Origin: Enterococcus silesiacus
GTDB taxonomy: Bacteria > Bacillota > Bacilli > Lactobacillales > Enterococcaceae
NCBI GenBank assembly: GCA_001465115.1
Contig: CP013614.1
Location: forward strand, 186,001 to 250,000
DNA length: 64,000 bases
Direction of reading: 5' to 3'
In this document: piece by piece, positions 34,414-58,001 of the stretch
Layout of the letters: each line of letters starts with the position of its first letter
Position numbering within the stretch: position 1 is the stretch's first letter
Made by a program: the position numbers and the translations under genes
Notes under the pieces: model-generated
The model's database searches: none
The model's input: only the letters and a program-made list of their open reading frames with translations
What the model was told of the DNA's origin: nothing

Positions 34414-34438
34414 TATTAAATAGGAAGGATTGAATCAA

Positions 34439-35533
34439 ATGACTAGAAGAGGGGAAAATATCTATAAAAGAAAAGATGGGCGTTGGGAAGGAAGGTATGC
34501 AAAAGGCCGGAAGGAAAATGGCACTATCCATTATGGGTATATTTATGGGTATAAATATAAAGAAGTCAAACAACGCTTAATTCACTTAAAATCCGCACAA
34601 CAAAATACGGACGAACTTTTTACCAAAGAGTACGAAGGAACGTTAAATGAATGGTCAGAGTATTGGCTAAAAGAAATTAAAGCTGATATCAAGCCCAGCA
34701 CATATAGTAGCTATTTGACCAAGCTGACACATCATATTTTACCTATGTTTGGCAGTCAGCCGATTTATATGATCAAAAAAAGTCAAGTGGAGTACTGGTT
34801 AAATAAACTGAGGGAAAAGTTATCGATCAGCTCGATCCATGCAACCTATAGAGTCTTAAGAAGTTGTCTAAACTATGCAGTTAAGCGTTCTTTACTTATA
34901 AAAAATCCTTGCATAGATGTTCAACTACCTAAACAAAAATCAAATACGGTACAAAGTTTGACAAAACAAGAACAAAAAAGACTTGAAATAGAAGCGAAGC
35001 AACATAAAGCTGGATTACCAGTTTTGATTGCCTTGGAAACTGGAATGAGAATTGGTGAAATTGCTGGATTAAAATGGCAAGACATTGACTTTTTAGAGCA
35101 AGTAATCAGAGTGAAGCGAACACTGCAGCGAGTAACGACAGAAGGAACAAGTCAAAAAACAGAATTAGTTGAGCTTTCCCCAAAGAGCAGTAATTCTGTT
35201 CGGATTATTCCATTGTCTCAAAATATGGGTTATTTACTTCAGAAGGTACAAAAAGAAGCACAAAGTGATTATGTAGTTGGCAAAAGAAAGGCGTTAGAGC
35301 CGCGTGTGATTAACTACCATTTTAAACAAATCTGTCAAAAGGCACAGCTGCCGCCTGTTCATTTCCATGCGTTAAGACACACCTTTGCTACTCGCTGTTT
35401 AGAAAACGGTGCGACTGTAGCAACGATCAGTGACTTATTAGGACACAGTTCAATCAAAATGACATTGGATACGTATATTAGTTCTTTCATGACTGAAAAG
35501 AGAAAAGTGATAGATTCTTTCAGCTCACTCTAA
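34439..35533 (+). CDS. Tyrosine recombinase / site-specific integrase
   Basis: The 364-residue product is a phage/ICE-type integrase. It has an N-terminal arm-binding domain (RGENIYKRKDGRWEGRYAKG), a core-binding SAM-like domain (about 70-160) and a catalytic domain with all key residues. These are the first Arg in LETGMRIGEIAGLKW, HALRHTFATR (H-x-x-R), the LGHSS histidine and the nucleophile tyrosine in LDTYISSF. The ATG at 34439 follows TAGGAAGG. No excisionase, relaxase, phage or cargo genes adjoin. It stands alone at the edge of the WxL island. Confidence 0.9.
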   Translation: MTRRGENIYKRKDGRWEGRYAKGRKENGTIHYGYIYGYKYKEVKQRLIHLKSAQQNTDELFTKEYEGTLNEWSEYWLKEIKADIKPSTYSSYLTKLTHHILPMFGSQPIYMIKKSQVEYWLNKLREKLSISSIHATYRVLRSCLNYAVKRSLLIKNPCIDVQLPKQKSNTVQSLTKQEQKRLEIEAKQHKAGLPVLIALETGMRIGEIAGLKWQDIDFLEQVIRVKRTLQRVTTEGTSQKTELVELSPKSSNSVRIIPLSQNMGYLLQKVQKEAQSDYVVGKRKALEPRVINYHFKQICQKAQLPPVHFHALRHTFATRCLENGATVATISDLLGHSSIKMTLDTYISSFMTEKRKVIDSFSSL

Positions 35534-35730: not shown

Positions 35731-36411
35731 ATGTACGCGATTGGGATACTTTCGGATATGCAAGTGATACGAGAAAAAGAGCAGGAACGATTTCTTACTG
35801 ATTTTGATATTACAGTTCATGATTTAGAAAATACTGACCTAGCTGCTCTCCAAGGTATCATTCTTCCTAAAAATGAATATATTCAAATAGAGAAATTATT
35901 TCAGTGGTTGATCAAAGTGAGAGAAAATACGTTAAAACCGATTTGGATTTTAACTAGCGAGCCACTAGGTGATGAAAAAATTATCTATTTAAAATTAGGT
36001 GTGACAGGCTTTCTTTTGGAAACAGATTCATTTGAGGAAATTGCTTGGACGATAAAGAACGGAATGCTTTCCATGAGCAAAGAGGATACTGCAGCAGACA
36101 AAAATCATATTTTTCGGATGGATCCATCAAGCTTCACCGCTTTAATTGCTGGTAAAAAGATGATGCTAACAAAGTTAGAGTATATGTTGCTGGATTACTT
36201 GTATGCCTCTGAAAATTCGGTGCGAACCTATGAGGAAATCGCCAATTACTTATGGAAACAAAAAGAATCAGCGCCAAAATATCGAGTAGCCAATTTAATT
36301 TTTCACATTCGTCAAAAAATAGAAATGATCGATGTAAAATACGCAGATATGATCAAAACAGTTCGATCAAAAGGGTATATTTTAACACTTCCAGAAGAAT
36401 TTATTGAGTAA
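35731..36411 (+). CDS. Winged-helix regulator with aspartate-less receiver domain
   Basis: The 226-residue product has a C-terminal OmpR/PhoB-type winged helix (about 135-222: KMMLTKLEYMLLDYLYAS, YRVANLIFHIRQKIE and TVRSKGYIL). The N-terminal part has receiver-like size and spacing, but the usual acidic pair and the phospho-accepting Asp are missing (LQGIILPKNE stands where the Asp strand ends). It is therefore probably not controlled by phosphorylation. No kinase gene is adjacent. It precedes a WxL gene by about 100 bases and is a paralogue of the regulator at 57309; both begin MY(A/T)IG. Likely regulator of locus 1. Confidence 0.8.
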   Translation: MYAIGILSDMQVIREKEQERFLTDFDITVHDLENTDLAALQGIILPKNEYIQIEKLFQWLIKVRENTLKPIWILTSEPLGDEKIIYLKLGVTGFLLETDSFEEIAWTIKNGMLSMSKEDTAADKNHIFRMDPSSFTALIAGKKMMLTKLEYMLLDYLYASENSVRTYEEIANYLWKQKESAPKYRVANLIFHIRQKIEMIDVKYADMIKTVRSKGYILTLPEEFIE

Positions 36412-36516
36412 CAAAAATTAAAAAAACATCCAATTCCTTGATCTTCCCCTGTAGTTGTTTCGTTGAAAGGAGGGATGTAAATTTTTTAAATAATTGCTAT
36501 GGAAAGGAGGAAAAAA

Positions 36517-38991
36517 ATGAGGAAAAAAAGAAAGGTTCAACTGGGAATACTGACAGTGATTACCGGAGTTGTTATTGGTGTAGCTTATTTCACTCAGAAT
36601 ATGAACGATAAATTAATGGCAGCCCCTCCCGTTGGGTATTCTGATTTTATCACGACCCCTGGAGTGAATGCAGTTGATATTAATGCGACTTCAAAAGTCG
36701 AAATTTCAGGAGACTATGCATTGAAGTTTCGGATATCAGATAAAATCACATATGAGCCAATTGGTGCATCGAAAGTTGAAGATATCATAAGCAAAAATAC
36801 ACTTCCAGGTGCTAAGGATCCACATAATTTCAGAGGGAAGAGTCAAGTCATCAGCTTTAACCCTAAAGATGAAGCCTTGTACCCTGAGCGCGCTGTTTGG
36901 ATTCGAAGAGCTGCTATTTATAAAGGTCGAGAAGTAGATATAAAGATGGTTATTGATAAATTGACTTTTAAATATCTCCCTGATTATCCAGGTGGCGGCT
37001 ATCCAGATGCAAACTTTTTTGCTTTAGATGTTACTGAACGAAATTTGTATAATGGTTATTTAACTGCGAGCGATTCACCAATCCTTTGGGAAAAAGCTTT
37101 CTTAATGATGGGTGGAAGAAGTGGTTCTGCTAATATGAATCATGAACAGTCAAGTAATCTTTCAGAGTCTTATACTCAAGGAGATACGATTTCCTATCAT
37201 TATGAATTTTATGATTCTAAAACAAAGTTGCCATTAGCTGTCAAAGGAATTTGGAATTACAACAATATCAATCAAGCAAAACAAGTCAAAACAGACTTTG
37301 ATGGCGACTTCAGTAATATTTTTGTCGCGACAGATGCTACGGTAAATTTGGGTTATCAGTTAGGCAGTCCACCTGTTGAAGATATTCTGATTTTTGGAAG
37401 TCAAGATATCGTGGATAAAAGCTATACTAGGTTAGATAAGATGTTTCAAGAAACTAAGTATACTACAGCATTTTCAGCTGCTAGAAAAACGACAGCGATG
37501 CTAGTAATGTATGAAACTGAATCACTAGCCCGAATCGCTCCTGCAAACCCAGTAGTCATTGGTAGTACGAATAGCCAAACACACAAAGACCCTAACTACC
37601 TAAACATGAACTACACCATCATTCAAGATGTGGCGGATAATCGGCTTATCAATCGTAATAATAAATTTGTGCTCGAAACAACTGTTCCAGATTATTATGA
37701 TATCGATGTAACAAAAGTTAAAGTTAGTTCATACGGAAATGCAGATGACTTAACGAATCTATTTACAATTGCGGTCGATCCAGCTAATGCCAGTAGATTA
37801 CTGCTAACAGCTAAAGATCCAACTACAAATGAATTCAATGGGAAGGTATTCGATATCAAGGTTTCAGCAAAACCAAACAGCACATTTAACTTTGATAAAG
37901 TTGCCTATAATTACCAAACTGGTGGTAAAGATGATGGCTATATGTTGTTTGAACAAGGTTTATCTGCCAAAGTTCACTATGAAGTCAATGATAGTGTGAC
38001 AGGTTTGGTCGTTCACAATAAAGATATCACTTCAGAAATTACGGATGAGTCAATGGTGAAAGTTCTGTATGAAGGAATTCCAGACGGCGATCCAAAAAAA
38101 GAGCTCACCTTCCCTAGAGATACCGATTTTTCAAAAATAGACATACAAACAGCTTATTTGGATAATCTTCGTGTAGATACAGAGAATGCCATCGATGAGC
38201 CAGTCACTGTGACCTATAAAAATGGAAAGCTACCTGATTCATCTGTTCTTGGACCACAAAAGGTAACGTTGATTTTAACGACAGCCAAAGAAGTTAGCGT
38301 GGAAAAAGAAGTAACTATCACTATCACTGATATTAGTGCGACCTTAACCGTCAAATTTATCGGAGAACTAACCAATGAACTGCATGTGCCGATTACATTA
38401 GAGGGGAATACGACGGATAAAGTTGACCTGACAATTGATAAATCGGTTCAAACGGTTGTTTCCGATTTAGTAGCGAAAGGTTATACAAAATTACCTTGGG
38501 ATAATGCGGATGCTGAAAATGCAACGCCATATACAGCGGGAACTGTTATCTATAAATTTCAAGGAAACTTAGCCTTAGATTCGGTTCCCGCAACCTTGAA
38601 CTTCGGTAAGCTAACCTATGATGCTAAAACAAAACGTGTAGAAAATCCTATTTTCAAAGAAAAGCTGGTCGTATCAGATACACGAGCAAATCCAGCTCAA
38701 GGCTGGCACTTGACCGCAACGCTAACTAGTCCAATGACAAATAATAAAGGGCAAGAGCTAGTCAATGCGCTACGCTATGTAGAACAAGGCCAAGAAACGA
38801 TTCTCGATGCGAATGCACAAGTCATCTATGCTAATAACGAAGGGAAAGACGGTAAATTTGCGGTGAGTGATTCATGGGGGACAGCGCAAGGAACAGACGG
38901 TATAAAACTTCAAATGAATTCTTCTGATACAGTGTATACCGGAGATTATATTGGAACGATTACTTGGAAGATTATGGCTGGGCAGCCATAG
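36517..38991 (+). CDS. Large WxL-domain surface protein
   Basis: The 824-residue product has an N-terminal hydrophobic export segment (about 9-28). A long beta-rich ectodomain follows, including repeated-looking Ig-like parts (about 440-620). The C-terminal WxL domain is marked by GWHLTATLTSPM and the closing GTITWKIMAGQP. WxL domains bind peptidoglycan non-covalently. It would be displayed on the cell wall, possibly as an adhesin. AAAGGAGG lies 8 bases before the ATG at 36517. It is first gene of locus 1. Confidence 0.88.
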   Translation: MRKKRKVQLGILTVITGVVIGVAYFTQNMNDKLMAAPPVGYSDFITTPGVNAVDINATSKVEISGDYALKFRISDKITYEPIGASKVEDIISKNTLPGAKDPHNFRGKSQVISFNPKDEALYPERAVWIRRAAIYKGREVDIKMVIDKLTFKYLPDYPGGGYPDANFFALDVTERNLYNGYLTASDSPILWEKAFLMMGGRSGSANMNHEQSSNLSESYTQGDTISYHYEFYDSKTKLPLAVKGIWNYNNINQAKQVKTDFDGDFSNIFVATDATVNLGYQLGSPPVEDILIFGSQDIVDKSYTRLDKMFQETKYTTAFSAARKTTAMLVMYETESLARIAPANPVVIGSTNSQTHKDPNYLNMNYTIIQDVADNRLINRNNKFVLETTVPDYYDIDVTKVKVSSYGNADDLTNLFTIAVDPANASRLLLTAKDPTTNEFNGKVFDIKVSAKPNSTFNFDKVAYNYQTGGKDDGYMLFEQGLSAKVHYEVNDSVTGLVVHNKDITSEITDESMVKVLYEGIPDGDPKKELTFPRDTDFSKIDIQTAYLDNLRVDTENAIDEPVTVTYKNGKLPDSSVLGPQKVTLILTTAKEVSVEKEVTITITDISATLTVKFIGELTNELHVPITLEGNTTDKVDLTIDKSVQTVVSDLVAKGYTKLPWDNADAENATPYTAGTVIYKFQGNLALDSVPATLNFGKLTYDAKTKRVENPIFKEKLVVSDTRANPAQGWHLTATLTSPMTNNKGQELVNALRYVEQGQETILDANAQVIYANNEGKDGKFAVSDSWGTAQGTDGIKLQMNSSDTVYTGDYIGTITWKIMAGQP

Positions 38992-39003
38992 AAGGGGGAA
39001 CTT

Positions 39004-39363
39004 ATGAAAAATAGACAACGTTTGATTTTGACCCTCTTCCTAACTGTCCTCGTTAGCTTATTTGGCACAGTCTCACCTGTTCAAGCTTCACAAGGGGGCG
39101 GAGATGGACAAGTTACCAGAGGTGGCAAGATTATATTTTATGATGAAACACAAGAGACACAAGCGAGTTCTTCTACAGAACCAAGTACATCTGAAATCAG
39201 TCTGCCTTCATCATCTGATACTCAAGCTGTTGAAAAACCAATCGGACGCTTCCCGAAAACGGGTGAGCTTATCCAACAGTACGGTTGGCTAGGCGGCGTA
39301 CTTCTGCTTCTTCTTATATGTCTGTTGTTTTTACGCAACAGTAAAAAGGGGGAACAGAAATGA
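39004..39363 (+). CDS. Small sortase-anchored protein (FPKTG)
   Basis: The 119-residue product has a signal peptide (about 1-29), a short serine/threonine-rich stalk (about 50-75), the sorting signal FPKTGE (variant of LPXTG), a hydrophobic helix and a positively charged tail (RNSKKGEQK). It would be linked to peptidoglycan by sortase. A small LPXTG partner is a standing part of WxL loci. Its stop overlaps the next start by 4 bases. Confidence 0.88.
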   Translation: MKNRQRLILTLFLTVLVSLFGTVSPVQASQGGGDGQVTRGGKIIFYDETQETQASSSTEPSTSEISLPSSSDTQAVEKPIGRFPKTGELIQQYGWLGGVLLLLLICLLFLRNSKKGEQK

Positions 39364-40169
39364 GACGAGTAACCAAGTCTTTTTGGATAGGTGCAGTAGC
39401 CATTGTAGTAAGCGTAGGAGGATTTGCTCAGCATTATCATGCAGAATCAGAAGAGACATTGACTGGTTCAGGTAGTGTAGAGGTCATCGGTAATGATCGT
39501 TCCGACATAGTAGATCCAGAAAATCCGGGAAACCAGATAGATCCTGGTGAAAGCCCACATACAACGGGTCCGCTTAGAATCGATTACGTATCAGAACTGA
39601 ATTTTAACAAAGCGCTGATTCAACAAAAAGAACGGAAATACGAAGCGTTAGCGCAACAATTTTATGATGAAACGACCGCTAGAGGCAGTTATATCCAAAT
39701 CACTGATCAAAGGGGCTTAGCGACCGGCTGGACATTACAAGTCAAGCAGCGTACGCAGTTTAACAATCCTGTGATTCAAAATAAAGAAGAACAGTCGTTA
39801 GTTGGCGCTTATCTATCTTTAGATAAAGGCTGGGCCAATTCTAGCGGTACGAGCACTCCACCGGCAGTGACACGAGAAACAATTGGCTTAAATGCCATCG
39901 ATACTGCTTATGAAGTGGCAACAGCGGCACCTAATACAGGCCGCGGTGTATGGACAATCGCGTTTGGCGCTTCTGATATGAATAGCGATGATCAACCAGT
40001 GACACTGAAACCACTTGTGGATAAAAATGGCAAAGCAATTATGGATGAGGAGTATCAAAAACCTGCTTATACGAATTCTGCCATCACTTTAACTGTACCG
40101 GAGTCGACAAAAATCTACCCAGTACAATATCAAACGGAGATAACTTGGATATTAGCCGAGTTGCCTTAA
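39360..40169 (+). CDS. WxL-domain surface protein
   Basis: The 269-residue product has a signal peptide (about 1-28, ending near HYHAES). A proline/glycine linker (NPGNQIDPGESPHTTG) and a C-terminal WxL domain of about 190 residues follow. The domain holds LRIDYVSELNF, GWTLQVKQ with the first W-x-L, and TEITWILAELP at the end. Expected to bind the cell wall and to pair with the DUF916 product downstream. Overlap ATGA with the preceding gene implies coupling. Confidence 0.9.
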   Translation: MRRVTKSFWIGAVAIVVSVGGFAQHYHAESEETLTGSGSVEVIGNDRSDIVDPENPGNQIDPGESPHTTGPLRIDYVSELNFNKALIQQKERKYEALAQQFYDETTARGSYIQITDQRGLATGWTLQVKQRTQFNNPVIQNKEEQSLVGAYLSLDKGWANSSGTSTPPAVTRETIGLNAIDTAYEVATAAPNTGRGVWTIAFGASDMNSDDQPVTLKPLVDKNGKAIMDEEYQKPAYTNSAITLTVPESTKIYPVQYQTEITWILAELP

Positions 40170-40200
40170 TAAATAGTAAAAAAAGAGAGGGAGTAAACAA

Positions 40201-41004
40201 ATGAAAGTAAGAAGTTTATGTACAGTATCATTAGTAGCAGTTATTTTAGGAACATCATTAGCAGGAGGTAGCCAAGCCTTTGCAGCACCAAAAGAGTTGC
40301 CTTCAACAGGAACAGTAGAAGTAATTGAAGGTGGCGATCCAGGTGCCGGCAAAACTCCTGACCCAGAAAAACCAGATGAAAAATTACCAACTCACCCAGA
40401 CATCGAAGATAACAAAGATGGCGGCGCGTTAATGATCGACCAAGTTTCTAACTTAAACTTTGGTACAATCAAAACATCAAGTAAAGATGTTGAAGCCTTT
40501 GCTGCACCAATCGACTTAACTGAAGCAACACCGGCCGGAGTAGGTACTCGTGGCGCAATCGTTGGTTGGACTGATATTCGTGCAAATGGTGTCTATGGTT
40601 ATACCGTAACCGCTGAATTAACACAACAATTTACTGGTACTGCAGCGAACGGAAGTACCGTTTTAGATTCATCTACGATCGACTATTCAAATGGAATGGC
40701 TGTAGCAGATAGCGAAAATAAAAACCTTGTACCATCAAATACAGCAACAGGTTTTAAATTAGCATTTGGTGGCGGCGCTCAACCAGTTGTAACTGCTGAT
40801 AAAACAGCAAAAGAAGGTAAAGGAACATATGTCATGGAGTTTGGTCAAAGTAAAGATTATACACCAGGCGCAGATGCTCCAGTTGGAGCACCAGGAACAG
40901 ATGGCGAGTCTGTGAAATTGACTGTACCTTCAGCAACAGCTTCAAACATGAGTATCGACACATATACAGCTAAAGTAACTTGGAAAATCGTTGCCGCAGA
41001 ATAA
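40201..41004 (+). CDS. WxL-domain surface protein with atypical first motif
   Basis: The 267-residue product has a clear signal peptide ending AFAAPKE. A charged linker with DPEKPDEKLPTHPDIED follows, and a WxL domain (LMIDQVSNLNFGTI, then GYGYTV-type segment VYGYTVTAEL, ending AKVTWKIVAAE). The first W-x-L is replaced by Y-T-V, while the second Trp motif is intact. Codon use is clean and strongly A/T-ending, hinting at good expression. Terminates locus 1a before a repeat-rich gap. Confidence 0.88.
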   Translation: MKVRSLCTVSLVAVILGTSLAGGSQAFAAPKELPSTGTVEVIEGGDPGAGKTPDPEKPDEKLPTHPDIEDNKDGGALMIDQVSNLNFGTIKTSSKDVEAFAAPIDLTEATPAGVGTRGAIVGWTDIRANGVYGYTVTAELTQQFTGTAANGSTVLDSSTIDYSNGMAVADSENKNLVPSNTATGFKLAFGGGAQPVVTADKTAKEGKGTYVMEFGQSKDYTPGADAPVGAPGTDGESVKLTVPSATASNMSIDTYTAKVTWKIVAAE

Positions 41005-41047
41005 TTGTGCGTTGTAAAAGTAGAGGATGGGATAGAAGTGTTTAACC

Positions 41048-41252
41048 CCGAGAACCAAGTAGGTACTGTGCAACATCAACTCATACTTCGTTGTGTTTTA
41101 CAGCAATAAGAAGGAATTCACGAAAATTGCCAAGAATCACAGTAAGTTTACGAACTGATGATGATTGGTACCTACTCGGTGTTCTTCAAATTTTTGTGAC
41201 CAAGTAGGTACTTTTCTACATCAGCTCGTACCTCGCTGTGTTTTACAGCAAT
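41048..41252. repeat. Three dispersed-repeat copies, direct-inverted-direct
   Basis: AACCAAGTAGGTACTGTGCA at 41053 begins a copy ending in TTTTACAGCAA near 41107. A reverse copy lies at 41143-41187 (complement of GAGTAGGTACC). Another direct copy runs 41198-41252. The inverted arrangement can fold into a long hairpin between WxL genes. No gene is present in 41005-41425. Confidence 0.65.
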
Positions 41253-41264
41253 TTCAGCTTATTT

Positions 41265-41350
41265 CCGAAGGGATTGCTTCTGCTTCCACCGTTTATCCGG
41301 ATTCCAAGTGATTGGGTCGTAACTCGTAGAGTTATGTCCCAATCACTGTT
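41265..41350 (+). repeat. Hairpin-bearing intergenic repeat, copy 2
   Basis: This is nearly the same as 13976-14060. Its hairpin GTGATTGGG/CCCAATCAC with inner TAACTC/GAGTTA is followed by GTTTTTCC, so it can act as a terminator. Confidence 0.75.
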
Positions 41351-41425
41351 TTTCCATGTTCGATGCAATGCTAGAAGTTCGTATACATACTGAAACAATT
41401 AATGAAAATTTTTATGAGGTGAATT

Positions 41426-42556
41426 ATGAAAAAAAGAAAATGGCTTCTATTTTTAGGCCTACTAAGCTTGATATCTATGATGTTTTTAGGCAATCTTCAG
41501 AAAGTACATGCAAATGAAAAAGATCCAGGTGGCGCAACGGGGTTTACATATAAGGTTTCTTTCCCTGACAATCAAATAGAAGAAAATATCGGATTTTACA
41601 AATTGAAAATGGCTCCTAATGATCATCAAGTAATTAAAATTGCCTTATCCAATCCTGGTAAAGAAAAACTAACGGTCGACGTTAGTTTGAATGGCGCAAA
41701 AACCAATCAAAATGGCGTGATCGAATATGGCGATTCTTCTATTGAAAATGATGCCTCGCTAAAATTTGATTTTAAAGAGATTGTAACAGGACCCAAAACA
41801 GTTGAGCTAAATCCAGGAGAAACAAAAGATCTTGAACTGACGATTCAGATGCCAGAAACGACGTATGAGGGAACTATTGCAGGTGGTATTCAGCTGATGC
41901 GGGCAAATCAGGGAGCAGAAGCAGATCAAAAAGGCGGTTCACAAATCATCAATCAGTATGCCTATGTCATTGGCTTGTTATTACAAGAAAACGACCAACT
42001 TCCTTCACCTAATTTAGCATTAAACAGTGTGAAAGCCAATCAAGATAATGCGCGTAATGCTATTTTCGTCAATTTTTCAAATGTAGAGGCAGCGTATTTA
42101 AATGACATGACCGTAGAAGTACAAGTGACCGAAAAAAACAAAGAAAATATTCTTTATGAGCGCAAACAAACAGCAATGCGCATGGCACCCAATACATTTA
42201 TCAATTTTCCAGTTAGTATGAATGGTGAAAAAATGGTCGCAGGCAAATACAAAGCGAAAATCTTAGTGACGTCTGGAAATGAAAAATGGGCGTGGGATAA
42301 AGAATTTACAATCGATCAAAAAGAGGCAGATAAATTTAATGAACGAGATGTCGGGTTAGTTCAAGAAAAAGGAATAAACTGGCAGCTGATTGCGTTAATT
42401 GCAGGTGGCTTGCTAGTAGGAATTGCGTTGATTTTTATTGTGCTTGTCATGATGCGCAAACGAAAAATGGCAAAAAATTCAAATACTCCTTCAAAAAAAA
42501 GACAAAATGGAAAGAAGTTGCCAAATAAATCCAAAAATAAACGAAAAGATCGTTAG
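41426..42556 (+). CDS. DUF916/DUF3324 protein (WxL partner)
   Basis: The 376-residue product has a signal peptide (about 1-29). The DUF916 peptidoglycan-binding domain follows (FTYKVSFPDNQIEENIGFYK to about 170), then the DUF3324 host/partner-binding domain (LNSVKANQDNARNAIFVNFS to about 305). A membrane helix (about 322-345) and a very basic cytoplasmic tail end it. Such proteins anchor and present WxL proteins. It stands 421 bases after the WxL gene with repeats between. Confidence 0.9.
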   Translation: MKKRKWLLFLGLLSLISMMFLGNLQKVHANEKDPGGATGFTYKVSFPDNQIEENIGFYKLKMAPNDHQVIKIALSNPGKEKLTVDVSLNGAKTNQNGVIEYGDSSIENDASLKFDFKEIVTGPKTVELNPGETKDLELTIQMPETTYEGTIAGGIQLMRANQGAEADQKGGSQIINQYAYVIGLLLQENDQLPSPNLALNSVKANQDNARNAIFVNFSNVEAAYLNDMTVEVQVTEKNKENILYERKQTAMRMAPNTFINFPVSMNGEKMVAGKYKAKILVTSGNEKWAWDKEFTIDQKEADKFNERDVGLVQEKGINWQLIALIAGGLLVGIALIFIVLVMMRKRKMAKNSNTPSKKRQNGKKLPNKSKNKRKDR

Positions 42557-42568
42557 GGGCTGAAAAGA

Positions 42569-43237
42569 ATGACTATTTTAGATCAGCTATTTATTGGTGG
42601 CATATCTGTGGCAATCGTTTTATTTTTCCTAGCTTGTTATTTTTTGTTTCAGTCGATTAGAACCCAAAAAAAGCTGACAAAACTGCCAAAAAGAAAAAGT
42701 AAAAATAAAAAGAAAAATAGACGCATTACGCAAAAGCGTCTCTACCTAAAAAAGTTTAGAAAAAAACAACTTATTTCCTTAAGTATCTCTTTAATTTCAG
42801 CCGTTTTATTGGTCAGTGGTGCGAGTTATCTTACGTATTATCAATCAATGAATCTTACGTCAGATGATTCTGATACACTGGTCAAATGTTACTATTTAAT
42901 CAGAGATTTTGAAAAAGAATTGATCACAGCAAAAGCAGGCGAAGAAGAAGAAGCAAAAATTCAGCAAAACATCCGCTATTTAGCTACTTCTATGACCAGT
43001 CAAGGAACAAAAAAAGCCAGTAAGATCAATACCGAAGAAGGCCAGCTGATCTTGAATCGCTACTATAATGTTGTCAAACAACTAGGGATGAACGCGAGTA
43101 CACAAACCAATAATTTTTATGGAAATGCCCAATTAGTCGATGCTTTTTTAGAAGACATAAAGAAAAGTGAAACCTATGAAAAAGCCGCATTTAGTTATTA
43201 TAAAGTGAATGAGTCCGCATTAAGTAAAGAGCAATAA
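42569..43237 (+). CDS. Membrane protein of the WxL locus
   Basis: The 222-residue product has two membrane helices (about 10-29 and 72-92) separated by a strongly basic stretch with many Lys/Arg (KRKSKNKKKNRR and onward). A C-terminal extracellular helical domain of about 120 residues follows. I know no function. It lies between the DUF916 gene and the signal peptidase homologue (12-base gaps), so it probably assists export or assembly. The 76-residue protein at 50224 looks like a shortened counterpart. Confidence 0.65.
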   Translation: MTILDQLFIGGISVAIVLFFLACYFLFQSIRTQKKLTKLPKRKSKNKKKNRRITQKRLYLKKFRKKQLISLSISLISAVLLVSGASYLTYYQSMNLTSDDSDTLVKCYYLIRDFEKELITAKAGEEEEAKIQQNIRYLATSMTSQGTKKASKINTEEGQLILNRYYNVVKQLGMNASTQTNNFYGNAQLVDAFLEDIKKSETYEKAAFSYYKVNESALSKEQ

Positions 43238-43249
43238 GTAGGGATTTAC

Positions 43250-43804
43250 ATGAAAAAAAATAAAAAAACAACAAATTCTTCTTATACCAAAGATCTTTTA
43301 ATTGCCTGTTTATGTGTGTTATTACTGCTTTTAATAGTCAGTCTGATTCGGTTTAAAGGAACAAGAGTCCAAGGCTATGCGATGATGCCTGCTTTGCACA
43401 ATGGAGATTTAGTTGTGGCTAAAAGAACGAAACAACCCAAACGTTTTGATTTAATCGTTTTTAAAATTGGGGAAAAGCAGCAAGTTCGACGAGTAATCGG
43501 CTTACCTGACGAGACGATCCAATATAATAAAGATCTTTTATTAGTCAATGGAAAGCCAGTCGATGAAAAATTTATTGTCGACGAAATCAATGAAAGCCAG
43601 TATAACGGAAAAAACTATACAGAAAATTTTTTCAGTGGTGAGTTGAATGGATCGAAAACAATTCCCAAAGGGTACTGTCTTGTGTTGGGCGATAACCGCC
43701 CTTATGCGACAGATAGTCGTCATTATGGCTTAATTGCGACCCGGAATATTATTGGCGTGATCAAGATAAGGCTTCTGCCAGTGAATGATCTGACAGGATT
43801 CTAA
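43250..43804 (+). CDS. Signal peptidase I homologue lacking both catalytic residues
   Basis: The 184-residue product has the signal peptidase I plan: one N-terminal membrane helix (about 15-32) and a catalytic-type domain. Box motifs are recognisable: VQGYAMMPAL, FDLIVFK, VRRVIGLPDE and LGDNRPYATDSRHYG. In active enzymes the first reads S-M and the third K-R. Here Ser is Ala44 (GCG) and Lys is Arg80 (CGA), so cleavage activity should be absent. Family precedent: SipA of the Streptococcus pyogenes pilus locus and SpsA of staphylococci. A chaperone or scaffold role in surface-protein assembly is inferred. Confidence 0.85.
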   Translation: MKKNKKTTNSSYTKDLLIACLCVLLLLLIVSLIRFKGTRVQGYAMMPALHNGDLVVAKRTKQPKRFDLIVFKIGEKQQVRRVIGLPDETIQYNKDLLLVNGKPVDEKFIVDEINESQYNGKNYTENFFSGELNGSKTIPKGYCLVLGDNRPYATDSRHYGLIATRNIIGVIKIRLLPVNDLTGF

Positions 43805-43813
43805 AGCGGTTAA

Positions 43814-43840
43814 ACACTCCATGATTCAGTGTATTTTTTA
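43814..43840 (+). terminator. Intrinsic terminator ending WxL locus 1
   Basis: ACACT and AGTGT enclose a 9-base loop and lead into ATTTTTTATT. Confidence 0.55.
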
Positions 43841-43898
43841 TTGTAAAAATAGAAAAATTTGGTAAAGTGGAAGTAGTACGTTTAACCGGAGGCAAAAG

Positions 43899-44768
43899 AT
43901 GAGTGTGTATTTAGAACGACCAGAATTTGAAGAAAACCTGCTTTTCAGAGCGTTTATCAATGATGGGATGACGATCGTTTATCCTCATTGGCATAAAGAA
44001 ATCGAAATCATATACTCGATCCGTGGAACAGTCAATATCGGCGTTGGGGACGAAATCGTTCATGTAGCAGAAGGAGAGATTTATTTTTTTGCCAGTGGCG
44101 AACCGCATTATTTTTTAGCTTCGTCAGATAGTGAACGAATTGTTTATCAGTTTGATTTGAGTATATTTAATGAGAAACAGTTAAAATCAGCGGATGATTG
44201 TTCGTTGATCGAATTATTTGAAACAGGAGAAAAACACAGTTCAAACTGGTCGAAATCTTTAGCGATAGACATCAAGAAGTTATTACAGCAATTATTTGAG
44301 GAATACGGGAATCAACATCTTGGGAAGAGTTATGCCCTGTTTAGCTTGTTGTTTGAACTGGTCACAACATTCTATAGAAGACTACCTCAAACGAAAATGG
44401 AAGTCAAAAAAGGTGCTAAAGCTTCTACCATGAAGTATAAAGAAAACTTAGAACAGTTAGATCGTATCTTTACTTATGTAGAAAATCATTATGAAGAATC
44501 AATTACGTTAGAGGAGATAGCAAAATACAGTGGGTTTAGCTCTTATTATTTTACACGCTTTTTTAAAGCCAATACGGGTACGACTTTTATGAGTTTTTTG
44601 ACTGAGTATCGTATTAATCAAGCAAAGTTTATTTTAGCCAATGAAAAAGTTCCTATGATCGAAGTCGCTGAAAAATCTGGTTTTGCTAGTGTGAAGACCT
44701 TTCATCATGTGTTTAAAGAGCAGGTGGGGATTTCACCGTTGAAGTATCAGAAGATGATTATAGAATAA
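43899..44768 (+). CDS. AraC family transcriptional regulator
   Basis: The 289-residue product has an N-terminal cupin (MTIVYPHWHKEIEIIYSIRG with metal/ligand-type histidines; VAEGEIYFFASGEPHYF). A C-terminal AraC DNA-binding pair of helix-turn-helices follows (ITLEEIAKYSGFSSYYFTRF, VPMIEVAEKSGFASVKTFHH). Cupin-AraC proteins usually sense sugars or related metabolites. It is separated from locus 1 by a terminator and has its own GGAGG site. The target is unknown; the neighbouring surface genes are candidates. Confidence 0.88.
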   Translation: MSVYLERPEFEENLLFRAFINDGMTIVYPHWHKEIEIIYSIRGTVNIGVGDEIVHVAEGEIYFFASGEPHYFLASSDSERIVYQFDLSIFNEKQLKSADDCSLIELFETGEKHSSNWSKSLAIDIKKLLQQLFEEYGNQHLGKSYALFSLLFELVTTFYRRLPQTKMEVKKGAKASTMKYKENLEQLDRIFTYVENHYEESITLEEIAKYSGFSSYYFTRFFKANTGTTFMSFLTEYRINQAKFILANEKVPMIEVAEKSGFASVKTFHHVFKEQVGISPLKYQKMIIE

Positions 44769-44814
44769 AAGACAGCAAGTAGAGTAAGTCATTTTACTCT
44801 ACTTGCTGTCTTTT
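44767..44814. terminator. Bidirectional terminator
   Basis: A nearly 20-bp perfect stem (AAAAGACAGCAAGTAGAGTA and its complement) lies between the convergent AraC and kinase genes. The kinase stop codon falls in its loop. Confidence 0.9.
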
Positions 44815-46108
44815 GATGGAAAATTGGTATAGCAAGTATCACTGAAAAATAGCCTTCATTAAATTGAAGGGAAAAAATAGCACCCTCATATTGATGGATC
44901 GTTTTTACAACAGAAGTGAGTCCATGTTTTTTATAGAATTTTTTTGAATTTATTGATTTCTCAGCTGTTTTTTTCAACTTATCTTGAGGCCTAGTTGCAT
45001 TTGTCAAATTAATATAAAGCTGATGTTCTTCTTTTTTTATCAATACATATAAATTTTTTTCTTCTCCTTTTTGGCTTTCTTTTATAGCGTATTCAGATAG
45101 AACAGACAAACAATGAAGAAAGTCGATCAAACGAATTTGGATCTCATTTTCTTCTATGTTATTAGGGATATTTAGACGAAGCTTTATCTGTTGAGTATCG
45201 CAATGCTCGATCAGATAAAGCAACAGTCCTTGAACCGATGGAATAGAAATATTTCCAAGTTCAGCATACGGATCTTCTTCTAAAACATCTTTTGAATAAT
45301 CAGTGATGGAGGCAATGTAAGTTAGCGCTTTTTGCGATTGATCTTGTTCGAGATAATCCGCTAAACTTAGCAAGATATTCCGATAATCATGTCTAAATTC
45401 GTCTGAAACAGTAATTTTTTCCAATTCTTGGTTGTATTGTTCAAAGAGTACTTCCTTTTTTAATTGTTGCTGATAGTATTTACTATATGAATAAGTAGTC
45501 GTGTAGACAATCAAGTTTAATGTAAGTAATAAAAACGTTAGGTAAAGAAATGACTCCACAAAAAAATGTTGTCCTGCTAATTGTTTAAGCAAAGAAAAAA
45601 TTGTAAGAAAAAAAAGAGCAATCATTGATTGAAATTTATAGCTTTTGGGAATATGTAAAATAGAATCACTAATCAAGTAAGTTTTATCAACTTTTATGAC
45701 AATTAAAATCAATAAAAACAGAATTATTTGTTGTCCAATTAATGATAAAGGCACGAGCATTTGGCGTTGACCTACATCAATATAGTTTAGTTGAAATAGA
45801 AAATTCACTAGATCATATGTAAAAAGCCAAGGAATCATTGCCAATGATTTAATCAAAAAAAGTGTTAAAGACATCAAAATCCAACTACCTGTAAAACGTA
45901 TTATAAAAATAGCTAAAGCGGTATAAAAGATAAATAATGTAGTAAAGATAAAAGATGTTCTAATAAAAAAACTAATCAAGATGATTGAAGCTAGTAGAAT
46001 AGATAGTATAATGGATTGTTTTGTGTCAATATATTTCTTATGAAGTAGTGCCCAGACAATTTGGAGATAATTAATAGCAAATAATTCTGTTGCTAAATAA
46101 GGTTCCAT
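44789..46108 (-). CDS. AgrC-like histidine kinase with degraded ATP site
   Basis: The 439-residue product has six or seven N-terminal membrane helices (to about 215) and a cytoplasmic GHKL-type part. The phospho-acceptor segment is present (SDEFRHDYRNILLSL). The N box, normally D-N-A-x-E-A, reads LSEYAIKES, without the essential Asn, and the G-x-G of the ATP lid is reduced (YKKHGLTSV). It is likely unable to bind ATP well and may act as a receptor partner of the intact kinase encoded upstream. It has its own promoter (46140-46168). Confidence 0.82.
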   Translation of the reverse strand: MEPYLATELFAINYLQIVWALLHKKYIDTKQSIILSILLASIILISFFIRTSFIFTTLFIFYTALAIFIIRFTGSWILMSLTLFLIKSLAMIPWLFTYDLVNFLFQLNYIDVGQRQMLVPLSLIGQQIILFLLILIVIKVDKTYLISDSILHIPKSYKFQSMIALFFLTIFSLLKQLAGQHFFVESFLYLTFLLLTLNLIVYTTTYSYSKYYQQQLKKEVLFEQYNQELEKITVSDEFRHDYRNILLSLADYLEQDQSQKALTYIASITDYSKDVLEEDPYAELGNISIPSVQGLLLYLIEHCDTQQIKLRLNIPNNIEENEIQIRLIDFLHCLSVLSEYAIKESQKGEEKNLYVLIKKEEHQLYINLTNATRPQDKLKKTAEKSINSKKFYKKHGLTSVVKTIHQYEGAIFSLQFNEGYFSVILAIPIFHQKTASRVK

Positions 46109-46139
46109 AAATGTTTACTCCTTTGAGTCAATTTGTTTC

Positions 46140-46168
46140 ATCATATCAAAAAGTTTAAAAAGTCACAA
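46140..46168 (-). promoter_or_regulatory. Promoter of the degraded kinase gene
   Basis: On the minus strand TTGTGA and TATGAT are 17 bp apart, about 25 bases upstream of the ribosome site AAGGAG and 30 before the ATG. So this kinase can be made independently of its neighbour. Confidence 0.65.
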
Positions 46169-46220
46169 TTTATAACTAGTTACTAAAGGTATAAATTCTA
46201 ACTAAATAGCTAATAAAAAC

Positions 46221-46267
46221 AAAAAATGTAGGAATACGAGTGCAAGACTCATTTTCCTACATTTTTA
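46221..46267 (-). terminator. Intrinsic terminator between the two kinase genes
   Basis: AAAAATGTAGGAA pairs with TTCCTACATTTTT, with an inner GAGT/ACTC stem. It ends the regulator-kinase 1 transcript. Confidence 0.85.
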
Positions 46268-47584
46268 TTTAGATATAAACTGTTGTCCTGACATCTTTGG
46301 TACTGAAAAACTAACAATGAAAAAAGGCTCTTTTTTTGCGATTTGGTAACTTGCTTTTTTATAATTATCGATCAGTTTAGCTAGAATGTGCAACCCTTTT
46401 CCTTGGTGGTTTTCTTTTGTTGAAAAATTATTTTGTAGCAAGGATTGTAGTGAAATATCTTTATCCGTGGTATAGGTATTTTTTACGACTATTTTTACAA
46501 AATTCGGGTCACCAGTAATCACTATTTCAATCAGCTTGAGCTCTGTCTCCTGAACAGCTTCATAGGCATTATCTAATACAATAGAAAAGCAGCGAATGAA
46601 GTCAACGATATTCATATCGATATCTGTCAATTTTTCCGTTACTTGGATCTTTAACTGAATATCTGTTTCTGAACAACGTTTGAGAAAACTAGTCAACAGA
46701 CCTTGGATTGGTGGATTATGGATCACCGCAATCGTTTTATACATGTTTGGTGTCAGCTGTGAGTTTGAATAATCAATAATCGTATGGAGTAAATGAAGCG
46801 CTTCTTGGGTATCGTTAATTTCTAAATAGGAAGTCAGACCGATCAACAGTTGTTTATAATCATGGCGAAACTCATTTGAACGGTTGATTTTTTCCCTTTC
46901 TTGTTCGTATTTTGCATTAAGAATATGAATATATTGTTGCTCATTTTTACGTTTAACAATAAGTAGAATATTCCAGCTGAGAAATGCGGTGAAACAGATA
47001 ATGATAAAAGTACTGTAAAAAAATGGAGCGGAATAACCTTCTGAAACACTCAATTGTTGTAGGCAAACCGTTATGGCTAAGAAAAATAAAAGTAAAATAG
47101 AAAGTAAACGATATTTTTTAGGCAGCAAATGAATAGTCGCTGTTATTTTGAATCGTTTATTTAAATAATTAGCGTAAAGTAATAGGAAATAAAAAACGAA
47201 TTGCTGCAGGAAAATAAAAAACTTTAAATAGGTTGAATAGGTCTCAATAGAAATCCAATTGTTGATAAGTAAAATATCCCAAAGATCCAGTGTTACAAGC
47301 CATGAGGCTAAAACAATCGAATTCTCAAAACTTAAAAATAAAGCTGGGACCACCCAATTTTGAAGTTTCTTTACGTGAAAAAAAAATTGTAGAAGAAAAA
47401 AAGGAATTAATAGTAAGACAATAAAGTGATCATCTGTAAAAAGGCCAATAATCAACTGAATAGCTAAAATAGTACTTAGTATCATTGTTTCCTTAAAGGA
47501 CAGGATTTTTTTATAAGCAAACAACCAAAGCAACTGCAAAAGATTGAGAGCTAGTAATGAAACGAAAAATGGTCTATCTAACAT
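46265..47584 (-). CDS. AgrC-like sensor histidine kinase
   Basis: The 439-residue product has an N-terminal membrane domain of six or seven helices (to about 215), the shape of peptide-sensing AgrC/FsrC kinases. The kinase part is intact: H box SNEFRHDYKQLL, N box IVLDNAYEAVQE and G box NHQGKGLHIL. It should autophosphorylate and pass phosphate to the LytTR regulator whose gene it overlaps by 11 bases. No AgrB/AgrD pair is nearby, so the signal is unknown. Confidence 0.88.
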   Translation of the reverse strand: MLDRPFFVSLLALNLLQLLWLFAYKKILSFKETMILSTILAIQLIIGLFTDDHFIVLLLIPFFLLQFFFHVKKLQNWVVPALFLSFENSIVLASWLVTLDLWDILLINNWISIETYSTYLKFFIFLQQFVFYFLLLYANYLNKRFKITATIHLLPKKYRLLSILLLFFLAITVCLQQLSVSEGYSAPFFYSTFIIICFTAFLSWNILLIVKRKNEQQYIHILNAKYEQEREKINRSNEFRHDYKQLLIGLTSYLEINDTQEALHLLHTIIDYSNSQLTPNMYKTIAVIHNPPIQGLLTSFLKRCSETDIQLKIQVTEKLTDIDMNIVDFIRCFSIVLDNAYEAVQETELKLIEIVITGDPNFVKIVVKNTYTTDKDISLQSLLQNNFSTKENHQGKGLHILAKLIDNYKKASYQIAKKEPFFIVSFSVPKMSGQQFISK

Positions 47585-48347
47585 AATGATACTCCTGTAA
47601 CCCCTTTTTTACTTTATCAATGATTCTAGTTCCTACAAAAAGATCCTGATCACCAGCAAATGTGATTGTACCATTTTTCCGGTTAATGGTTGAGATATTT
47701 TCAAGATTGATTATGTACGACTGAAGCGATGAAAATAAGTAAGGTTGCTTCAAATTATTTTTGATTTTCCCAATTTTCCCTTCTATGATCAATTCTTCCG
47801 AAAGAGTTTTGATCAGAACCCGACTTTTCAATCCTTTCAACGATTCAATATACAAAATTTCCTTACAATTAATATAAATAGACTCGTAACCATTCATAAA
47901 TGTTGTAATATCTTGATCTTGCCTCCAAGCTGATTTAGTTAGACTTTCAACCTTCATAAGAACAGTTTCAATGGTTGCTTTCAACTCAGTTGAGTCGACT
48001 GGATTTTTTACAAGATAGCCAAGTGGAAAAATATCACTATTGATGATCGAAATTGCTTTGTCTTCAAAACTAGTCAGAAAAATAATAGTACATTTTGTAT
48101 TAATTTTTCGAATTTGCTTCGCTAAATCAATCCCCGAATATTGTGTTTTCAAATCAATATCTAAAAAGAAAATATCATTATCAGAAATAGTCAATGTTGG
48201 AATATCTTCCATAAAAAGTAAGTGATTATCTAAAGGAGACAAGTTGTAGTTAAAAGTGTTTGAATGATAATTTTCAATATAATGAATAATTCGTTTCCTA
48301 TAAAGATTATCATCTTCAACCACATAAATTGTTGTAGTATGTGTCAT
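47574..48347 (-). CDS. LytTR-type response regulator (AgrA-like)
   Basis: The 257-residue product has an N-terminal receiver (acidic VVEDDN, phospho-accepting Asp in DIFFLDIDL, Lys in GYLVKNP). A C-terminal LytTR DNA-binding domain follows (YESIYINCKEILYIESLKGL, ending KVKKGLQEYHYVR). It binds direct-repeat DNA in promoters of related systems. Twin 23-bp repeats lie just upstream, between it and WxL locus 2. AAGGAGG precedes its ATG. Confidence 0.9.
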   Translation of the reverse strand: MTHTTTIYVVEDDNLYRKRIIHYIENYHSNTFNYNLSPLDNHLLFMEDIPTLTISDNDIFFLDIDLKTQYSGIDLAKQIRKINTKCTIIFLTSFEDKAISIINSDIFPLGYLVKNPVDSTELKATIETVLMKVESLTKSAWRQDQDITTFMNGYESIYINCKEILYIESLKGLKSRVLIKTLSEELIIEGKIGKIKNNLKQPYLFSSLQSYIINLENISTINRKNGTITFAGDQDLFVGTRIIDKVKKGLQEYHYVR

Positions 48348-57308: not shown

Positions 57309-58001
57309 ATGTATACGATTGGATACTTGATAGAAAAAGAACAAGAGGTAAATGCTCATTTAAATTTTTTGACAGCTAAAGGCTGGAGTTTATCGGAAAT
57401 CAATATAAGAGAACAATTCGTGTATCAAGAGAATTTTGATGCTATTATTATATGTGAAGATAATATGTCTGAGGCTTGTTTTTGGTTAATGGAACTAAAA
57501 AAAAATGTAAACGTACCTATTTATTTATTATCAGCAATCGATGAGTCTCGTTCAAACATTGTCTATCTACAACTAGGAGCACAAGCCTGTTTTTCTATGA
57601 AGATGGAAGCAGAGGAACTTTACTATACGTTAACGAATTTACTTAGCCATTATTCAAATAAAAGTAGCCCTCTATCAACGAAGACATCGACCTCATCTAA
57701 GCAAAAAGAAATAGAGTTAATCCCTAGAAATTTAAGTGTGCTGATCGATGGAATAATAGAGGTGGCTTTGACTAAAAAAGAATATAATGCATTAGAGATG
57801 TTATACAATAGTCCAGGACAAACGATTTCTTATAATGAGCTTAAAGAAAAATTATGGAATTCTGAAATGAATGTTGAAGATAAAAACTATCGAGTCGCCA
57901 ATATTATGTTCCATTTACGAAATAAAATCGAAATAAGTGTAACCAATCCAAGATTCATCAAAACCGTTCGTTCTAAAGGATACATGTTAGATATAAAATA
58001 G
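57309..58001 (+). CDS. Winged-helix regulator with aspartate-less receiver domain, second copy
   Basis: The 230-residue product has a C-terminal OmpR-type winged helix (IIEVALTKKEYNALEMLYNS, YRVANIMFHLRNKIE, TVRSKGYMLD). The N-terminal receiver-like domain has the phospho-acceptor position as Cys in FDAIIICEDN and lacks the acidic pair. The switch-side GAQACFSMKMEAEEL lacks the Lys-Pro. It is a paralogue of the regulator at 35731 and faces away from locus 2 at its right edge. No kinase adjoins. GGGGAGGG gives its ribosome site. Confidence 0.8.
   Translation: MYTIGYLIEKEQEVNAHLNFLTAKGWSLSEINIREQFVYQENFDAIIICEDNMSEACFWLMELKKNVNVPIYLLSAIDESRSNIVYLQLGAQACFSMKMEAEELYYTLTNLLSHYSNKSSPLSTKTSTSSKQKEIELIPRNLSVLIDGIIEVALTKKEYNALEMLYNSPGQTISYNELKEKLWNSEMNVEDKNYRVANIMFHLRNKIEISVTNPRFIKTVRSKGYMLDIK

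Follow-up and report, generated by a model that had tools for sequence, protein, structure and literature searches.

What might a signal peptidase that has lost the residues used for cutting be doing among genes for surface proteins? The question is raised by a 184-amino-acid protein (positions 43250-43804) encoded in a 64,000-nucleotide stretch of the Enterococcus silesiacus genome, hereafter the window, where it belongs to a locus for WxL proteins. The protein has the S26 fold and is matched by the family profiles PF10502 (119.2 bits) and TIGR02227 (127.9 bits, with a cut-off of 47). Both the Ser nucleophile and the Lys general base expected of a working type I signal peptidase are missing, their places being taken by Ala44 and Arg80; below, the dyad is written as the residue at the Ser position over that at the Lys position, an intact one being S/K (Ser/Lys). 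An initial annotation had noticed both replacements and the retention of the surrounding boxes, and alignments bear this out: box B reads VQGYAMMPAL and includes Ala44, box D, QQVRRVIGLPDE, contains Arg80, and box E, GDNRPYATDSRHYG, is conserved in outline, yet has Ala153 at the place of LepB Ser278, a residue described in the available part of PMC4049620 as steadying the catalytic Lys.

The loss is not peculiar to this strain. Among the best 120 of 863 homologues, none of the nearest 92 has the dyad (two being fragments in which the Ser position is missing), and every one of the 22 that carry Ser/Lys ranks 93rd or lower. Orthologues with an intact dyad, named beforehand as the observation that would count against a real loss, were looked for; those of E. 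termitis and E. crotali (P0003, 88% identical, and L074), the closest named relatives as judged by the locus proteins, likewise carry Ala/Arg, so that the claim stands and a sequencing error is ruled out. Membership in the family and loss of the dyad are well supported. Since named homologues among the 120 carry the label 'signal peptidase I', active peptidases will be overcounted in such genomes.

Within the host genome (one contig of 3.93 Mb, with 17 PF10502 genes, 59 WxL matches and 26 genes for the WxL-interacting protein, WxLIP), the broken copies accompany a second gene, whose product, a membrane protein, we call F5. All 26 WxLIP loci were read: ten contain F5, and peptidase genes are found at exactly these ten WxL loci and at none of the 16 without F5 (an eleventh F5 match was counted in the genome, ten being assigned to WxLIP loci). 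At each of the ten, one peptidase with a broken dyad lies immediately 3′ of F5 (five S/R, two A/K, and one each of A/R, G/R and S/Q). In three of them, an intact S/K copy comes next, followed by a YfhO gene (PF09586, 730 bits in the one scanned), and these loci also hold genes that by eye resemble lipoproteins. The four remaining peptidases of the genome lie outside WxL loci and are all S/K. An intact peptidase outside the WxL loci, at C1:3579217-3580077 (L039), has a cytoplasmic tail of about 104 residues with a net charge of +28. Basic WxLIP tails, considered as a possible mark of F5 loci, did not differ between the ten loci and the 16 (p = 0.81).

The same arrangement recurs throughout the genus. 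All 22 genomes have F5, each with 5-17 matches, and WxLIP genes number 8-39 per genome. We analysed 108 F5 loci, comprising the ten of the host and 98 fetched from 140 listed non-host matches (at most five per genome; one match with internal stops fell outside the sampled 98). A peptidase gene follows downstream in 104, within 230 bp in 102 of these; the count includes those of L191 and L246, which are found 2.5 and 3.5 kb downstream with another gene in between. None of these 104 first peptidases after F5 has Ser/Lys, so the alignment of WxL-locus homologues, proposed at the outset as a check, finds the loss common to them. Ser is retained in 62 (60 S/R and two S/Q) and replaced by Gly, Ala or Met in 42, while the Lys-supporting Ser of box E is lost in 71.

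Because F5 served as bait in these counts, we also tested the link from the other side, using 80 contig loci, kept from 108 picked out by a box E motif of this peptidase family, which come partly from the same species. F5 is present at 53 of the 80, with a broken first copy in 53/53 and an S/K second copy at 19, and all 29 peptidases at the 27 loci without F5 are intact. A further control was provided by F5-less WxL loci of other genomes, where a peptidase occurs in 0 of 38 stretches; these derive from 89 WxLIP matches, host and F5-adjacent ones having been removed by eye, of which 51 were drawn (at most three per genome) and 40 fetched, two being excluded as they had F5. The control stretches extend about 2.5 kb beyond the WxLIP match, which leaves room for F5 and a first peptidase. 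As loci without F5 have either intact peptidases or none, the broken dyad tracks F5 and not WxL loci generally. Judging by co-occurrence, the F5 and pseudo-peptidase genes form an add-on to the WxL operon, and the pseudo-peptidase represents a branch of type I signal peptidases that is apparently non-catalytic and has its place in one type of WxL (csc) operon.

Beyond the genus, F5 matches with E < 1e-40 are confined to the host family (33 of 105 genomes, one by a weak match) and one other family of the order (56 of 395), which the contig of L092 suggests is that of Vagococcus; matches of 1e-6 to 1e-3 elsewhere resemble noise from membrane helices. In a genome of another genus of the host family (G027), signal peptidases have expanded separately, with 24 PF10502 matches and no F5 match.

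How the dyad was lost can be read from a tree of 156 rows, built by a quick search without bootstraps after removal of columns 44, 80 and 153 and with SipA, the dyad-less signal peptidase homologue of Streptococcus pyogenes, not among the rows. All broken copies fall on one side of one branch (SH-aLRT, the Shimodaira-Hasegawa-like approximate likelihood ratio test, 99), with two changes between Lys and non-Lys and 16 between Ser and non-Ser. On these sequences, the simplest reading would be a single loss of Lys, its later regain in the Ser-less A/K pair, and a Ser position that drifts. Within the broken clade, positional entropy is 0.27 bits at the Arg position and 1.52 at the Ser position. 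Three residues in the former active-site boxes are fixed in this clade and not in active relatives, namely Arg80 (100/104), Tyr/Phe 43 (103/104) and Tyr/Phe 152 (103/104), and the S1 peptide pocket is mostly conserved.

The 16 changes at the nucleophile position might alternatively reflect the decay of a duplicated peptidase that lost its function and is now being lost, as might the four genus F5 loci without a peptidase, at which open frames only were searched and remnants were not sought. Selection argues otherwise: the median ratio of non-synonymous to synonymous substitution rates (dN/dS) of the pseudo-peptidases is 0.165 (35 pairs), which indicates purifying selection, compared with 0.117 for the tandem copies (8 pairs) and 0.091 for F5 (84 pairs), the pairs overlapping in each case. 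Moreover, the three clade-specific residues are fixed although active relatives lack them, and F5 is retained in every genome of the genus. The shared loss and the dN/dS together make a sequencing error or a relic unlikely, and we find decay, taken by itself, scarcely credible.

Retention of Ser in 62 of the 104 copies also raises the prospect of an enzyme that still cuts, with Arg or another residue as the base, perhaps slowly or at high pH. Lys-to-Arg mutants of LexA reportedly keep a pH-shifted self-cleavage; a literature search on this change gave no direct mutant study among the papers listed. However, the 42 members with Gly, Ala or Met, including that of the window, share the clade and the operon position of the Ser-keeping ones, and the Ser that supports Lys is gone from most copies, so that we hold continued proteolysis to be very improbable.

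Another role is suggested by the tandem arrangement. A second peptidase is present at 41 of the 104 genus loci, with Ser/Lys in 41/41, and five further copies (four in tandem, one farther off) found at 20 loci hand-picked from listed matches outside the genus (L307 and L308 sharing identical motifs) are all S/K as well. The dead copy could serve an active signal peptidase as a regulatory or structural subunit, steering or slowing it on the preproteins of the locus. Staphylococcus aureus possesses a pair of this kind, SpsA and SpsB, whose genes we take to be neighbours; we know of no WxL locus and no F5 there. According to the available part of a review (PMC12445088), SpsA is inactive and dispensable and SpsB essential, an inactive peptidase beside an active one as at the 41 tandem loci, whereas the locus of the window has no active partner. 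Indeed, 63 of the 104 loci, that of the window included, have no second peptidase in the stretch and would need a housekeeping enzyme in its stead. Furthermore, the tandem copies in the genus may owe their presence to YfhO, the gene for which occurs at 41 of the 41 genus tandem loci (e.g. L025, L032 and L033), often with two lipoprotein-like genes, although three of the four tandems outside the genus (L307-L309) lack a YfhO match in the stretch. We therefore consider the subunit role unlikely, if still deserving attention. Given the glycosyltransferase role described for YfhO-type proteins in the portion of PMC8035078 available, loci with a tandem peptidase and YfhO suggest a surface glycosylation arm.

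A different lead came from the small LPXTG-type protein of these loci. At F5 loci, the first residue of its xPxTG motif is Tyr or Phe in 66 of 93 cases (Y 55, F 11, L 27), compared with 3 of 15 at F5-less loci of other genomes (two in proteins of more than 1200 amino acids; Fisher 2.6e-4) and 2 of 7 at F5-less host loci (Fisher 0.03), both p values being too small because the rows are related. This would fit a cleft that holds an odd sorting peptide for a sortase, as proposed for SipA and a class B sortase, and some SipA-dependent pilins have non-Leu motifs according to the available part of PMC7900414. However, the sortase Thr or the whole motif is lost in 10 of 103 motif-bearing genes at F5 loci and in 7 of 22 at F5-less loci, which also led us to reject motif decay as a mark of F5 loci. 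Since the rows are related and motif loss occurs with and without F5, we place little weight on this lead; no sortase gene is present in the locus of the window, the five sortase matches of the genome lying elsewhere, and presentation of a sorting signal strikes us as decidedly improbable. Thr-less motifs (LPSMGE, LPNMGE, LPKAGE, LPNAGE, IPSLGE and LANLGE) were observed in the small LPXTG-type proteins of L161, L165, L167, L168, L172, L173, L174, L191, L208 and L232, and also of L263, L266 and L268; with the sortase Thr lost, such a protein may remain in the membrane.

As the residues for cutting are gone and the copies sit in WxL clusters beside F5, a role in surface-protein assembly, and not in cutting, is probable. 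The reading we favour, by a modest balance of the evidence, is that the membrane-bound pseudo-peptidase and F5 together serve WxL complexes as a factor for assembly or presentation, in a SipA-like manner. SipA (LepA) of S. pyogenes, to which the initial annotation had already pointed, likewise has the signal peptidase fold without the dyad; as described in the available part of PMC4049620, it is essential for pilus polymerisation and keeps its cleft, with no detectable cleavage. The parallel is a fair one in function and fails in detail. At the places of LepB Ser90, Lys145, Ser278 and Gly272, SipA has Asp, Gly, Arg and Asn (same source) and the pseudo-peptidase Ala, Arg, Ala and Gly; more generally, the old active site holds Asp and Gly in SipA, and Ala, Gly, Ser or Met together with Arg in the WxL-linked clade. 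SipA belongs to a pilus operon with a class B sortase, whereas the pseudo-peptidase belongs to a WxL operon with F5 and without a sortase; with such differences, the protein is at most SipA-like in its working. By sequence, it is far nearer to an ordinary peptidase (E. faecalis EF3073, 3.6e-27) than to the SipA entries (8e-5 and 1.3e-4), whose match is weak. Its dyad was probably lost separately. EF3073 (PDB 4me8) and ordinary Gram-positive type I signal peptidases, which give the best sequence matches, share its fold and boxes; the aligned ordinary members have the Ser/Lys dyad and the box E Ser, all three of which the pseudo-peptidase lacks.

Several observations weigh against this reading. 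Being paralogues and orthologues within one clade, the 104 cases do not count as independent events, and with Ser kept in 62 of them, those members may have a weak or unusual activity. The S3 pocket is unlike that of active relatives, position 70 being Tyr in 62/104 and position 38 variable. F5 does not always need the peptidase, which is missing from 4 of the 108 genus loci and from 5 of the 20 loci outside the genus (the other 15 all having a broken dyad). Finally, pull-downs with SipA recovered no pilin, sortase or peptide, as stated in the available part of PMC4049620, and the parallel therefore gives no evidence of peptide binding. The dyad loss on which the initial annotation built its interpretation is real and shared, which supports that interpretation in part; the role of chaperone or scaffold and the organised WxL structure that it proposed are conjectural.

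If the pseudo-peptidase does act in assembly, it would be membrane-anchored, its domain on the outer face close to the Sec exit, and its cleft could bind, without cutting, a peptide stretch of the secreted proteins of the locus, be it a signal peptide or the sorting peptide at the C-terminus of the small LPXTG-type protein. Together with F5, it might hold or order the WxL, WxLIP and LPXTG-type partners until their assembly at the wall, and cutting would be left to ordinary peptidases or, at some loci, to the intact tandem peptidase encoded next.

A further, though doubtful, reading is that this branch turned into a receptor that recognises signal peptides after cleavage, or some other free C-terminus. 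In an SpsB complex described in the available part of PMC4704075, the general-base Lys holds the carboxyl terminus that cleavage has created on the peptide, and a trap for such a product fits a clade in which Arg is fixed, Ser is released and the S1 pocket is largely kept. Against it, the Asp at the Ser position of SipA and a nearby Lys can be changed without effect, according to the accessible part of PMC4049620. If it held, the pseudo-peptidase and F5 would sense or hold the cut signal peptides of their locus, tying WxL assembly to processing, and with one unit per locus each WxL complex would have a checkpoint of its own.

F5 itself is confidently modelled (predicted local distance difference test, pLDDT, 92) as a pair of long N-terminal helices joined by a basic loop, followed by a four-helix bundle at residues ~98-210. 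A Pfam search with 75 F5 members gave just scattered weak matches, located in the membrane-helix part, and structure searches returned generic bundles only, below the stated noise level for bundles. Named relatives, among the best 120 of 137, are called hypothetical, uncharacterised, or YccF or MapZ domain-containing. The database name 'MapZ extracellular domain' on a Vagococcus relative had suggested a MapZ-type wall protein; this reading failed, the MapZ domain not being among the 25 listed of 39 Pfam families (E 0.01). An antiphage role was likewise set aside, there being no PADLOC match.

The features of the locus are collected in Table 1. Its gene order runs from a regulator through the large WxL protein, the small LPXTG-type protein, two small WxL proteins and WxLIP to F5 and the pseudo-peptidase; WxLIP, F5 and peptidase genes are separated by 12-bp gaps, and 421 bp lie ahead of WxLIP. 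With cscA (DUF916/DUF3324), cscB, cscC and cscD, the last encoding the small LPXTG-type protein, all present together, the initial description of a WxL (csc) locus is correct. No intact second peptidase lies beside the pseudo-peptidase gene in this locus, and a promoter and terminator scan of 36000-45000 gave no clear excess over shuffled sequence.

Table 1. The pseudo-signal-peptidase gene, its altered codons and the other genes of the locus, in window coordinates.
Feature	Position	Strand	Remarks
Pseudo-signal-peptidase, 184 aa	43250..43804	+	short basic N-tail, one membrane helix (sequence and model), S26 fold, dyad absent
Codon 44, GCG (Ala)	43379..43381	+	nucleophile position; Ser in ordinary members (alignments)
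Codon 80, CGA (Arg)	43487..43489	+	general-base position; Lys in ordinary members (alignments)
Codon 153, GCG (Ala)	43706..43708	+	box E, place of LepB Ser278 (alignment)
OmpR-type regulator, upstream of locus	35731..36411	+	winged helix matched; receiver domain not matched
Large WxL protein (CscC), 830 aa	36499..38991	+	profile match
Small sortase-type protein (CscD; EF2685/EF0750 family)	39004..39363	+	motif FPKTGE; NF053819, 74 bits
Small WxL protein (CscB), 269 aa	39360..40169	+	profile match
Small WxL protein (CscB), 267 aa	40201..41004	+	profile match
WxLIP (CscA; DUF916 + DUF3324), 376 aa	41426..42556	+	profile match
F5 companion protein, 222 aa	42569..43237	+	membrane protein; predicted four-helix bundle; scattered weak Pfam matches

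A tyrosine recombinase gene (34430-35533, plus strand) lies directly upstream of the locus. Ten of the 16 PF00589 matches of the host genome (one of the ten below the cut-off) lie no more than 10 kb from a WxLIP gene; the regions so defined cover 11.3% of the genome (binomial 1.4e-6). WxL loci may be cassettes that spread or switch. OmpR-type regulators at 35731-36411 and 57309-58001 adjoin WxL loci and belong to a family with 16 members in the host stretches retrieved; the one scanned has a winged helix only, without a receiver domain, and no adjacent kinase gene was seen. Between two WxL loci, at 44789-48347 on the minus strand, are two paralogous GHKL histidine kinases (439 amino acids each) and a LytTR response regulator. 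Finally, a 974-residue protein (54052-56976, plus strand), in which leucine-rich-repeat-like stretches can be recognised by eye and whose C-terminus reads WQIVDAPTG, adjoins a two-WxLIP locus without F5.

The cscA-D set is the one described for csc/WxL clusters (Siezen 2006; Hassan and Williamson; Hassan 2023), and F5 and the signal peptidase lie outside the four csc families recognised in them. The word peptidase has no occurrence in the available main text of two WxL papers (PMC10599100 and PMC9772566), the accessible part of Siezen 2006 mentions signal peptidase just for signal-peptide removal, and literature searches, which did not cover preprints, gave no description of WxL-linked signal peptidases. 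F5 and the pseudo-peptidase put two concrete genes to the question of how the parts of WxL complexes exit the membrane and assemble. If the dyad was indeed lost separately from that of SipA, this would be a second signal peptidase turned to surface assembly, which would suggest that the peptide cleft of this fold is a reusable part.
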